IMG/VR virus record: IMGVR_UViG_3300017757_000091
Span: 1 to 29,137 of that record
Length of the DNA: 29,137 nt
Direction: 5' to 3' (one strand)
Source of the DNA: a virus
Program-made: the position numbers and the translations under genes
Notes under the pieces: model-generated
The model's database searches: none
Seen by the model: only the letters and a program-made list of their open reading frames with translations
Told to the model about the DNA's origin: nothing
Part shown: positions 19,298 through 23,824 of the stretch, one piece after another
Numbering within the stretch: the stretch's first letter is position 1
How the letters are laid out: every line of letters begins with the position of its first letter

Positions 19298-19738
19298 ATG
19301 AGTCATTGGTTATATAAAAATAAAGTGCTCGATGAAGCACCTGAAGGGTATTTTGGATTTGTATATAGCATTACAAATAACGATACAGGTAAGCAATATA
19401 TTGGTCGTAAATATTTTGGTTCAACAAGACGTGTAAAGGTTAAAGGTAAAACACGACGTAAAGTTGTACGCAAAGACTCTAACTGGAAAGAGTATACAGG
19501 TTCATCAAAAGAGCTAAACCAAGATATAAAACAACTAGGAAAGTTGCATTTTAAATTTATTATTCTTATATTAGGTAAAACTAAAGGGCAAGTTAATTAT
19601 CTAGAAGAAAATCTTCATCACCGATTTCACGTAGCTTCTAATGAATTATTTTATAATGATTGTATAGGTCCACGACGATTTGGTAATGTAAAAATCGATA
19701 TTGACACTAAACAAATAATAAAAGAAATAGTTGGTTAA
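19298..19738 (+). CDS. GIY-YIG family endonuclease
   Basis: A 146-residue protein with all the expected catalytic features of a GIY-YIG nuclease domain: GFVY at 20-23 (variant of GIY), YIG at 34-36 followed by Arg37, Glu103/Glu104 in YLEENL, and Asn120 near the end. A very basic insert (about 43-60) could contact DNA. The domain fills most of the protein with no obvious DNA-recognition tail, which is shorter than classical Seg homing enzymes. It begins one base after the LamG gene stop with no ribosome site. It may be a free-standing homing endonuclease or a domesticated phage nuclease. Metal-dependent DNA cleavage is the family activity; the target is unknown. Confidence 0.85.
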   Translation: MSHWLYKNKVLDEAPEGYFGFVYSITNNDTGKQYIGRKYFGSTRRVKVKGKTRRKVVRKDSNWKEYTGSSKELNQDIKQLGKLHFKFIILILGKTKGQVNYLEENLHHRFHVASNELFYNDCIGPRRFGNVKIDIDTKQIIKEIVG

Positions 19739-19764: not shown

Positions 19765-20676
19765 ATGAGTTTAATTAGTTTATTAGAAACAGTAATAGGT
19801 AGATCTAAAAAGACATCTGGTAATAATGTATCATTTAAATGTCCTTTATGTAATCATCATAAACACAAGTTAGAAGTAGATTTAAATACACAGTATTGGC
19901 ATTGCTGGGTTTGTAACTCTAAAGGTAGAAAGTTATACACACTTTTTAAAAAAATTAATGCTACAATTTCACAATTTAAAGATTTAAATAAGTATGTAGA
20001 TAGTTATATAAAAATAAAAGAAGTTGATGAAACACACGTAAGCTTACCTCCAGAGTTTAGATTAATTATAAATGGTAATAAAACTAATCCTGAGTTTAGA
20101 AATGCACTAATGTATTTAAAAAACAGAGGTCTTACAAAGGAAGATATTATACGCTATGGAATAGGTTACTGTGAAACAGGTCAGTATGAAAAAATGATTA
20201 TAATACCTAGTTATGATATTAAAGGTAAACTAAACTTCTTTACAGGTAGGAGTTATTATAAAGATGCTTCATTTAAACATAAGAATCCAAAAGTATCAAA
20301 AGATATTATTGGATTTGATTTGTTTATAAATTGGAATCAACCAATAACTATCGTAGAGGGAGCGTTCGATGCTATAGCTGTAAAGAGAAACGCAATACCA
20401 CTTTTTGGTAAAATTATATTAGATAATTTAAAGAAAAAAATAATAGAAAAACAAGTTAATACTGTTTATATAGCTCTAGATTCTGATGCAAGATCTAAAG
20501 CTCTAGATATATGTCAATATTTTATAAACAATGGAATTCGTGTACACCTTATAGAATTGCAAGATAAAGATCCTTCAGAATTAGGTTACAGAGAAATAAC
20601 AAAAGTTAAACAAATAACACAACCGGTAACAGGTAGTGGGTTAATGTTAAAACAGATGGGGTTAAATTTTGGTTAA
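19765..20676 (+). CDS. 61: DNA primase, gp61 type
   Basis: A 303-residue primase. The N-terminal zinc ribbon uses C26, C29, C47 and C50 (CPLC and CWVC), which contact single-stranded template. The catalytic TOPRIM part follows, with IVEGAFDAIAV (about 195-205, with its Glu), IALDSDARSKA (about 236-247) and KDPSE (about 272-276), the three acidic elements that hold Mg. T4 gp61 is 342 residues, so this is slightly short but complete. It would prime lagging-strand synthesis with the replicative helicase (gp41), which is not in this window. No ribosome site precedes the ATG; a promoter-like box sits directly upstream. Its stop overlaps the TTG start of the gp47/46 fusion. Confidence 0.92.
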   Translation: MSLISLLETVIGRSKKTSGNNVSFKCPLCNHHKHKLEVDLNTQYWHCWVCNSKGRKLYTLFKKINATISQFKDLNKYVDSYIKIKEVDETHVSLPPEFRLIINGNKTNPEFRNALMYLKNRGLTKEDIIRYGIGYCETGQYEKMIIIPSYDIKGKLNFFTGRSYYKDASFKHKNPKVSKDIIGFDLFINWNQPITIVEGAFDAIAVKRNAIPLFGKIILDNLKKKIIEKQVNTVYIALDSDARSKALDICQYFINNGIRVHLIELQDKDPSELGYREITKVKQITQPVTGSGLMLKQMGLNFG

Positions 20677-23600
20677 AAACATAAATTTAAAATTTGAAAA
20701 AGTAGAAAAAATATTACATGTTGCTGATATACATATTAGAAATTATCAACGACATAAAGAATATCGAGAAGTATTTAAACACTTATATGAGGCAGCAAGA
20801 AAATTACCTGAAAATAGTTTAATTTATATTGCTGGTGATGTTGTACATAATAAGACAGATATTTCACCTGAACTAATTGATGTTACTTCTGAATTTTTTA
20901 AAGAGTTAGCAGATATTAGACCTACAATTGTAATTACTGGTAATCACGATACTAACTTAAATAACACAAGTAGACTAGATGCACTTACTCCTATTATAAA
21001 TAATTTAAATCATAAAAATTTATTCTACTTAAAAGATTCAGGGGTATATAAATTTGGGAATGTTCACTTTACTGTTTTTAGTATTTTTGATCACCCTTCA
21101 ACATTTATTAAAGCTAAATCATTTAAAGCTGACACAAAAATAGCACTATTTCATGGACCTGTAAAATCGTCCAAAACGGATATAGGATATGAAGTAACAG
21201 GTGATGAGTATACAGCAGATTTATTTAATGGGTACGACCTATCACTATTAGGTGATATTCATAAACGTCAATATGTTGATAAAGAAAAAACTATATGTTA
21301 TCCTGGCTCTCTTATTCAGCAAAATTTTGGTGAAGCTTTTAAACATCATGGTTATGCTATATGGGATGTTAAAACAAGAAAGCCTAAATATACTGATATT
21401 CCTAATAATTATGGGTTCTATACTATAGACATAAATGATGGTGTTTTACCTAATATAGATGATATTCCTAAATATCCTAGGTTAAGGCTACGTACTAAAA
21501 ATACAACAGAAGCAGAAGTAAAAACTATACTTAAAGATATTAAAAAGAAGTGTAGAGCACATGATGTTGTTATTATAAAGCAAGATAAAATAAAAGGCCA
21601 TGCCACAACTTCAAGATCATTAACTAGAGATGTTAGAGATATTAATTATCAGAATAAGTTATTAAAAGACTATATAGAGAAAAATCATGATATAGATAAT
21701 AACATGATGAGTCAAGTACGCAGTATTAACAAAACTTTAAATAGCTTGCTTTTAAATGAAGATATTTCACGGTCTGTCACATGGAAATTAAAAATGTTTG
21801 AGTTTTCAAATATGTTTAGTTATGGTGAAAATAACTCTATTAATTTTAATAAAGCTAAAGATGTAGTTGGTGTATTTGCACCAAATCATGCTGGTAAATC
21901 TGCAATACTTGATTCTGTATGTTTTTGTATATTTGATAGATGTAGTAGAGGTAAACTAGCTACTGATATAATGAATAATAAAAAGAATAATTTTCATTGT
22001 AAATTAAATTTTGAGATAGACGGCACTAATTATTATATTGAGCGTAAAGCAAAACGTATTGCTAAAGGTTGGATGAAAGGTAAGGTGAGGGTTGATGTAG
22101 ATTTCTGGTATGTAGATGAAGATGGAAATAACGTGTCTCTCAATGGAGAGCAACGCAGAGAGACAGATAAAAACATTCAAGGGTACTTAGGTCAGTATGA
22201 CGACTTTGTACTTACTGCTCTTTCTGTACAAAATAATAATACTGGCTTTATAGATAAATCTCAGTTTGAAAAAAAAGATTTATTGTCACAATTTTTAGAC
22301 ATAACAGTATTTGAAGAATTATATAGTCTAGCAAATGATGAAATTAGAGATGTTCAAGCTCTACTAAAAGATTTTGGTAGTACTGATTACTCTCAACAAT
22401 TAATTGATGCAGAAGAAAAATTAGATGTAGATACTATCAGACACGCTGAATATCAAACTGAAAAAGATTTTGTTGAATCTGAGATTAAAACTATACAAAA
22501 ACAGATTTTAGCTGAAACTAAAACATTACATAAGCGTGTGCCTTTAGATGATATTAATATATTAGAATTAGAACTTATTGGATTAAATAATCAAATTAAT
22601 CAGATTAATAAAAGATTAGAATCTGATGAAGGTGTTGCAGCTGCCAATAAATTGAAAGCTAAAAAGGCTAATGAGATATTATCATCATATAATATAGATT
22701 TAGTTAATAAACAATATAAACAATATAATGAAACGTTAATTAAAGTATCTAAACTTGAGCAACAGAGAGAAAGACTTAAATTAGAGGTAAAGCATAAGTT
22801 AGATAAATTGGAAACTAAAAGAAATTTTGATCCTAATTGTGATTTTTGTAAAAAGCGTGAAAGTGAATATATTGAAATGGCTGCTACTACTACAAAAGCT
22901 CTTGAGCAAGATAAAATAAAAGTTAAAGAAGTTTTACAGGAACTTAAAATACATAATGATTTTATTAATAATACTAGTAATATAGTTGAGGATTATGATA
23001 AAATACAACAAATAGATAAATTGTTAGGTACAATTGAGCAAGAGCGTAATGTTGGTAGGATTGCTTATTATCAAGCTAAAGATAAACGAACCGGCATTGA
23101 GTACGAGGTAAAAAGTATAAATAAAAGAATAAAAAAGTATCACGATAATATAAAAGCAATTGAAGACAATAAGAAAATAAATAGTAAAATAGATAAATTA
23201 TCTGCTAAAGAGAATACTCTTAAGCATGAATTAAATTCTATTGATAGCAAGTGTCAATTATGTTATAGTGATATAAAAGTATTAAAATCTGAAATTAAAG
23301 GTGTTAATAACCAAATTAAAAAAGCACATACGCTAGAAACTAAATTAAAAGCTTATGAATATTATCTAGATGCAATTCAACGTGATGGTATACCGTATGA
23401 AATAATATCCGATACTTTACCTTATATAGAAGAAGAAATAAATAATATTTTATCACAAATTGTTGACTTTAAGTTATTATTTGATGTTGATGGAAAAAAT
23501 ATACTCACATATATTAAATATGGTGATGACAATCAATGGCCATTAGAAATGACTTCAGGTATGGAAAAGTTTGTAAGTTCATTAGCTATCAGAGTAGCAT

Positions 23601-23824
23601 TAATAAATATATCAAGCTTACCTCGCCCTACCTTTTTAGCAATTGACGAAGGTTTTGGTAATTTAGATACTAATAATATTAACTCGATTGCCATGTTATT
23701 TGATTATTTAAAATTACAATTTGATTTTATAATGATTATATCACATATTGATATTATGAGAGATATGGTTGATGGTACTATTGAAATAAGCAGAAAAAAT
23801 AATTTAAGTAACGTTATTTATTAA
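20669..23824 (+). CDS. Fused gp47-gp46 (SbcD-SbcC/Mre11-Rad50-like) recombination nuclease
   Basis: One continuous frame of 1051 residues joins two proteins separate in T4 (gp47 339, gp46 560). The nuclease half (about 1-330) has the metallophosphoesterase motifs VADIH (18-22), AGDVVHN (55-61), GNHD (91-94), FHGP near 160 and GDIHKR near 195. The ATPase half has Walker A APNHAGKS (about 403-410), a coiled coil with a zinc-hook CDFC (C724/C727), signature SGMEKFVSSLAIR (about 964), Walker B FLAIDEG and an ISHID His-loop. A second CxxC occurs at C862/C865. The complex resects DNA ends for recombination-dependent replication. The only canonical start ahead of VADIH is TTG at 20669, overlapping the primase stop. 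Confidence 0.93.
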   Translation: MVKNINLKFEKVEKILHVADIHIRNYQRHKEYREVFKHLYEAARKLPENSLIYIAGDVVHNKTDISPELIDVTSEFFKELADIRPTIVITGNHDTNLNNTSRLDALTPIINNLNHKNLFYLKDSGVYKFGNVHFTVFSIFDHPSTFIKAKSFKADTKIALFHGPVKSSKTDIGYEVTGDEYTADLFNGYDLSLLGDIHKRQYVDKEKTICYPGSLIQQNFGEAFKHHGYAIWDVKTRKPKYTDIPNNYGFYTIDINDGVLPNIDDIPKYPRLRLRTKNTTEAEVKTILKDIKKKCRAHDVVIIKQDKIKGHATTSRSLTRDVRDINYQNKLLKDYIEKNHDIDNNMMSQVRSINKTLNSLLLNEDISRSVTWKLKMFEFSNMFSYGENNSINFNKAKDVVGVFAPNHAGKSAILDSVCFCIFDRCSRGKLATDIMNNKKNNFHCKLNFEIDGTNYYIERKAKRIAKGWMKGKVRVDVDFWYVDEDGNNVSLNGEQRRETDKNIQGYLGQYDDFVLTALSVQNNNTGFIDKSQFEKKDLLSQFLDITVFEELYSLANDEIRDVQALLKDFGSTDYSQQLIDAEEKLDVDTIRHAEYQTEKDFVESEIKTIQKQILAETKTLHKRVPLDDINILELELIGLNNQINQINKRLESDEGVAAANKLKAKKANEILSSYNIDLVNKQYKQYNETLIKVSKLEQQRERLKLEVKHKLDKLETKRNFDPNCDFCKKRESEYIEMAATTTKALEQDKIKVKEVLQELKIHNDFINNTSNIVEDYDKIQQIDKLLGTIEQERNVGRIAYYQAKDKRTGIEYEVKSINKRIKKYHDNIKAIEDNKKINSKIDKLSAKENTLKHELNSIDSKCQLCYSDIKVLKSEIKGVNNQIKKAHTLETKLKAYEYYLDAIQRDGIPYEIISDTLPYIEEEINNILSQIVDFKLLFDVDGKNILTYIKYGDDNQWPLEMTSGMEKFVSSLAIRVALINISSLPRPTFLAIDEGFGNLDTNNINSIAMLFDYLKLQFDFIMIISHIDIMRDMVDGTIEISRKNNLSNVIY

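Follow-up and report, generated by a model that had tools for sequence, protein, structure and literature searches.

The locus

The window, by which is meant the whole 29,137-nucleotide stretch analysed (IMG/VR virus record IMGVR_UViG_3300017757_000091), is a 29 kb virus contig, and the baseplate-wedge genes that it carries point to its origin in a contractile-tailed phage. On its plus strand, positions 20669-23824 hold an open reading frame of 1051 amino acids without an internal stop, the first part of which (residues 6-349) matches PHROG 100, SbcD-like, with an E value of 4.5e-32 and the remainder (residues 283-1050) PHROG 77, SbcC-like, with an E value of 2.2e-45. Pfam gives Metallophos on residues 14-199 (6e-14) and, weakly, SMC_N on residues 374-1043 (4e-6, under its cut-off) and SbcC_Walker_B on residues 961-1011. 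The features are as follows.

19765..20676, plus strand: DNA primase gene (PHROG 47), directly upstream, its end overlapping the start of the fused gene by 8 bases
20669..23824, plus strand: fused SbcD-SbcC (Mre11-Rad50, gp47-gp46-like) gene, 1051 codons, TTG start, from PHROG matches
20708..21376, plus strand: Mre11/SbcD calcineurin-like nuclease domain, residues ~14-236, with all metal-site motifs, Asp196 replacing the first His of GHxH
21377..21625, plus strand: capping domain region, residues ~237-304, with the poorly ordered 307-317, from model secondary structure and pLDDT, the fold match running up to residue 304
21641..21748, plus strand: helix-loop-helix (residues 325-339 and 344-360), placed and shaped like the Rad50-binding domain of Mre11, from the model (pLDDT ~82-89) and the published description of fusions
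21749..21781, plus strand: inter-domain linker, residues 361-371 (~11), from the homologue alignment
21782..22348, plus strand: Rad50/SbcC ATPase N-terminal lobe with Walker A and Q-loop, residues ~372-560, from alignment, model and SbcC fold match
22349..23377, plus strand: antiparallel coiled-coil arms, residues ~561-903, helices in the model
22838..22849, plus strand: zinc-hook CxxC (C724, C727), invariant in 70/70
23378..23821, plus strand: Rad50/SbcC ATPase C-terminal lobe with signature, Walker B, D-loop and H-loop, residues ~904-1051, from Pfam, alignment, model and fold

The start codon is TTG in the window and ATG in 8 close relatives, in each case near or overlapping the primase stop, and the 8-base overlap makes translational coupling of the two genes likely. 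A scan for promoters and terminators around the fused gene gave nothing above chance. Upstream of the primase, at 19298-19738, is a SegE-like gene for a GIY-YIG endonuclease (Pfam PF19835, 6.5e-32); its best PHROG match carries the name ‘NAD synthetase’ (phrog_447), apparently in error. A GIY-YIG gene is found at the equivalent position in Microcystis phage Mel-JY01 too, a hint that its function is settled and that it is not a roaming homing gene.

Conservation of the frame

Relatives were fetched in two scans of IMG/VR at ~40-88% identity; related contigs numbered at least 580 in the second scan, from which the best 80 were taken. The scans also yielded L015, a contig that matches the window base for base over all its 6,222 bases, the junction between the two halves included. 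When the same fusion was sought in related phages, as the earlier note had proposed, both halves were found in one open frame, of 1007-1202 codons, at 89 of 107 loci, these 89 coming from IMG/VR, phage records and one MAG. The remaining 18 comprise contigs whose ends fall within the gene, distant bacterial or archaeal single genes, L003 (below), L005, which is a very divergent jumbo-phage protein and itself one ORF of 1318 aa, and one locus without a match. Among the 107 loci examined no close relative is split at the junction. For residues 320-380, dN/dS is 0.01-0.08 in those close pairs where it was computable and, on these codon comparisons, the junction is under strong in-frame purifying selection; in most pairs it is the coiled-coil arms that have the highest dN of the regions.

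Three sets of relatives merit separate mention. In the huge phage LR756508 (L003, 4600-5650) an insert breaks up the fused gene just behind the catalytic motif GDIHKRQ; within the insert is an ORF that matches HNH-endonuclease (PHROG 1271) and TnsA-like proteins, and the gene resumes in another frame. The insert is likely a homing-endonuclease insertion or an unrecognised intron, though its comparison with Rfam for a known intron gave no credible match. A full fused gene, 29% identical, is on a 7.8 kb contig of a Flavobacteriales MAG (JABHTA010000021.1), possibly a phage contig and so a hint of host range. Four large IMG/VR relatives (G002, G003, G005 and G006) have, besides the fused gene, a further one or two small genes, of 220-278 codons, for calcineurin-like phosphoesterases.

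Motifs of the two halves

Complete nuclease and ATPase motif sets had been claimed for the frame, and the sets are indeed present, but they are not fully canonical. The nuclease motifs, D20-x-H22, G56-D57-x-x-H60, N92-H93-D94, H162 and G195-D196-x-H198, are in register and invariant in 70/70 aligned relatives, except H93 (69/70), and so the Mre11/SbcD metal site (DxH, GDxxH/D, GNHD, H, GHxH) is represented throughout, with GDxH as the fifth element. All the motifs of a Rad50/SbcC ATPase follow, in two groups between which lies a coiled coil bearing a CxxC hook: Walker A A404...G409-K410-S411, Q521, signature S963-G-M-E966, Walker B D993-E994, D-loop D1000 and H1026, again in 70/70. The hook cysteines, C724 and C727, are equally invariant. 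The two departures are an Ala in place of the first Gly of Walker A, and Asp196 at the position of His206 of P. furiosus Mre11, i.e., GDxH and not GHxH. Asp for the motif V His could change metal binding or activity. Is it a correlate of being fused? GDxH is present in most of the fused phage proteins examined and GHxH in most of the split phage pairs examined; however, because the fused protein of Sphingomonas phage PAU has GHxH, and a split Vibrio T5-like SbcD has GDxH, the association in this sample is only a loose one.

There is a second CxxC at residues 862-865 (23252-23263), on the returning coiled-coil arm, in close relatives of the window protein only. C862/C865 was considered as a second hook and rejected, there being no conservation beyond those relatives.

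Folds and the linker

The structure model used was built from the 70-sequence alignment and has a mean pLDDT of 82 and, as a monomer, a pTM of 0.45; an earlier model from 10 sequences (pLDDT 61.6) was too poor and was set aside. Residues 11-304 of the model match S. aureus SbcD (7dog, Z 25.1) and residues 372-1051 match E. coli SbcC (7yzo_D, Z 30.6), so that in the predicted structure a nuclease and capping fold is followed by a putative Rad50-binding helix-loop-helix. The helices of the latter, 325-339 and 344-360, are followed by a break, and the first ATPase strand begins from 371. A ‘helical linker’ at about 330-370 had been proposed from the sequence, and while the helices stand, they are mainly the Rad50-binding helix-loop-helix of Mre11, the true linker being the ~11 residues, 361-371, that come after it. 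The stretch between N358 and W372 is 13 residues in 70/70 aligned homologues. As pTM is only 0.45, the placement of nuclease relative to ATPase is not fixed by the model. The best viral matches among predicted structures are fused giant-virus proteins, e.g., that of Tupanvirus (25% identity, 1319 columns), and chains of JetABC and Lamassu are also in the list of fold matches.

Relation to known fusions

That the partners are separate chains in T4 was correctly stated in the earlier note, and T4-like and SPO1-like phages do have them as separate genes; its gp47-gp46 order in one chain also holds, there being one ORF with PHROG SbcD and SbcC matches. The arrangement is, however, not unprecedented, either in the literature or in cultured phages. 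Mre11/Rad50 fusions were reported in 2011 by Yoshida, Claverie and Ogata from Mimivirus (R555), a Bacillus phage, plasmids, bacteria and eukaryotes, the phage named being 0305phi8-36 (PMC3175470). In those fusions Mre11 comes first, and most have the helix-loop-helix and extra linker residues; R555 has a His-to-Asp change at the P. furiosus His206 position (PMC3175470). Aquatic viral metagenomes were found to be rich in relatives of R555, whose scaffolds also carried phage primases and endonucleases, and many of these relatives were suggested to belong to phages (PMC3175470), a description that the primase and GIY-YIG endonuclease beside the present fusion fit. Here, too, both domains are in one chain with Mre11 N-terminal, the helix-loop-helix is retained and the linker is short. 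The window fusion thus belongs to a class known since 2011 and the fusion itself is not new. Compared by description, R555 and the other 2011 fusions share domain order, helix-loop-helix, short linker and aquatic viruses with it, and R555 the Asp as well, but R555, the protein of an amoeba virus, has 1351 aa and a longer coil, whereas the window protein, of a tailed phage, has 1051 aa.

Full-length fusions in the phage collection are those of Microcystis phage Mel-JY01, a huge uncultured phage (L004) and jumbo phages of Tenacibaculum, Sphingomonas and Chryseobacterium. Tenacibaculum PTm1/pT24, Sphingomonas PAU gp288, Chryseobacterium MA9V-1 and Mel-JY01 likewise have both domains in one ORF, though in the jumbo phages the protein has 1301-1326 aa and a longer coil, and its similarity is only distant (PTm1 24% over the matched part). 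These fusions of jumbo phages and Mel-JY01 are labelled only ‘metallo-phosphoesterase’, ‘DNA repair’ or ‘AAA domain’, or are unlabelled, and nothing further was found in later literature on phage SbcDC fusions or on Mel-JY01. T4 gp47/gp46 and SPO1-like pairs have the same two domains and gene order, and presumably the same job, but as separate chains, often with small genes between, and with GHxH as motif V where the window has GDxH. Both folds are also shared with E. coli SbcCD and with Thermotoga and archaeal Mre11-Rad50, which are separate chains at ~20% identity.

How often did the fusion arise? A tree built from 20 fused and 6 split pairs has a branch (support 100/98) that sets the fused ones apart, with the window family, jumbo phages and Mel-JY01 together. 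This is compatible with one origin of the fusion within that sample, in which split pairs are few, several branches are long, the root is one bacterial pair, and cellular and giant-virus fusions, including R555, are absent. In the 2011 analysis fusions were not one group (PMC3175470). A larger proposal, which at present seems doubtful, is that one ancient fusion, with a homodimer lock and the His-to-Asp change, was ancestral to the proteins of aquatic phages, of Bacteroidota and Sphingomonas jumbo phages and of giant viruses, and that these are a distinct class exchanged between phage and giant virus.

Proposed working

One frame with both domains, their intact motifs, the helix-loop-helix, the linker, the folds, selection on the frame and, in large relatives, the lack of a second strong SbcC-family match are established. 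We infer a dimer with docking in cis, resection and a role in replication. The preferred reading, to which we give a probability of about 0.88, is that a contractile-tailed aquatic phage here makes a single-chain Mre11-Rad50 (SbcDC), most likely acting as an M2R2-like homodimer in DNA-end processing for UvsX-type recombination. Two fused chains would form a homodimer equivalent to M2R2, with each nuclease tied to one ATPase by a short linker, of fixed length, that connects to the first ATPase strand. The two nuclease domains would pair, ATP would close the two ATPase heads, and the zinc hooks would meet at the tips of the coils. DNA ends would then be processed, by resection or by cleavage of hairpins or blocked ends, to 3′ single strands, and these would pass to the phage UvsX-type recombinase for recombination-dependent replication and repair, in the manner of T4 gp46/gp47. 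Ten large records have no strong SbcC-family match other than the fused ORF, and 8 of the ten have a UvsX-like recombinase (PHROG 97), which together make a role of the T4 gp46/gp47 type likely.

Can so short a linker span the distance? Between the C-terminus of Mre11 and the N-terminus of Rad50 the Thermotoga complex has a gap of ~28 A, needing 9-12 extended residues, and a structural argument for the in-cis fit of fusions has been published (PMC3175470); the ~11 residues of the window linker are within that span. Domain swapping between the two chains may also be compatible with a linker of this length. As to stoichiometry, which a fusion had been proposed to fix at 1:1, fusion does not change it: since canonical M2R2 is already 1:1, being fused only enforces that ratio and pre-pairs nuclease with ATPase.

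The single chain could be a precursor that is cut by a protease, or internal initiation could yield free SbcC, and either would leave an ordinary two-chain working complex. The model shows poor order at residues 307-317, which lie between capping domain and helix-loop-helix and could be cut, yet the linker length is conserved, for which there would be no need after a cut. Some homologues do have Met codons in the junction, but M382, which belongs to the ATPase domain, is the only Met conserved in 70/70, and the junction Met codons of the window have no clear Shine-Dalgarno-like site before them. An internal start for free SbcC was accordingly rejected, a conserved start being absent from the 70 homologues, and we consider a two-chain product by either route to be improbable.

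T4 gp46/47 also act in host DNA degradation. An SMC-like ATPase with a nuclease is, moreover, the plan of defence systems, of which the JetABC and Lamassu chains noted above are examples, so that the protein might have been repurposed, e.g., for counter-defence or as a nuclease degrading host DNA, and no longer serve replication and recombination. Set against this are closest matches that are to Mre11/Rad50 proper, the position beside a primase, and the lack of another strong SbcC-family match in these phages; repurposing is rated a little less probable again than a two-chain product. That two neighbouring genes were falsely joined through an assembly or sequencing error, with loss of a stop or a frameshift at residues 320-380, is scarcely credible given the identical separate contig L015, the 89 other loci that keep the frame, the conserved linker length, the low dN/dS at the junction and the lack there of a ribosome site or conserved internal start, even though an artefact-like fusion is known, the ‘fused’ 1009-aa gene of Listeria phage LMTA-57.

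At the junction LMTA-57 and its split relative P61 differ by one A in a short A-run, and in LMTA-57 the second gene still has its ribosome site and its ATG; the LMTA-57 ‘recombination exonuclease’ fusion is, as judged from its sequence, probably a sequencing error or an isolated mutation. The window family does not have the appearance of such an isolated frameshift.

Significance

Understanding of how Mre11-Rad50 complexes work is unchanged by the single-chain protein described here. What is gained is, in part, practical: with a short fixed linker, and nuclease and ATPase pre-paired, it is a handy, naturally occurring construct for studies of structure and mechanism. Members of the family, though common in aquatic viral contigs, go in databases under the labels ‘metallophosphoesterase’, ‘AAA domain protein’ or ‘hypothetical’. 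To a class that in the metagenomes of 2011 was seen as fragments only, full-length phage members are now added and, were the doubtful single ancient fusion to be true, single-chain Mre11-Rad50 would be a distinct mechanistic class.
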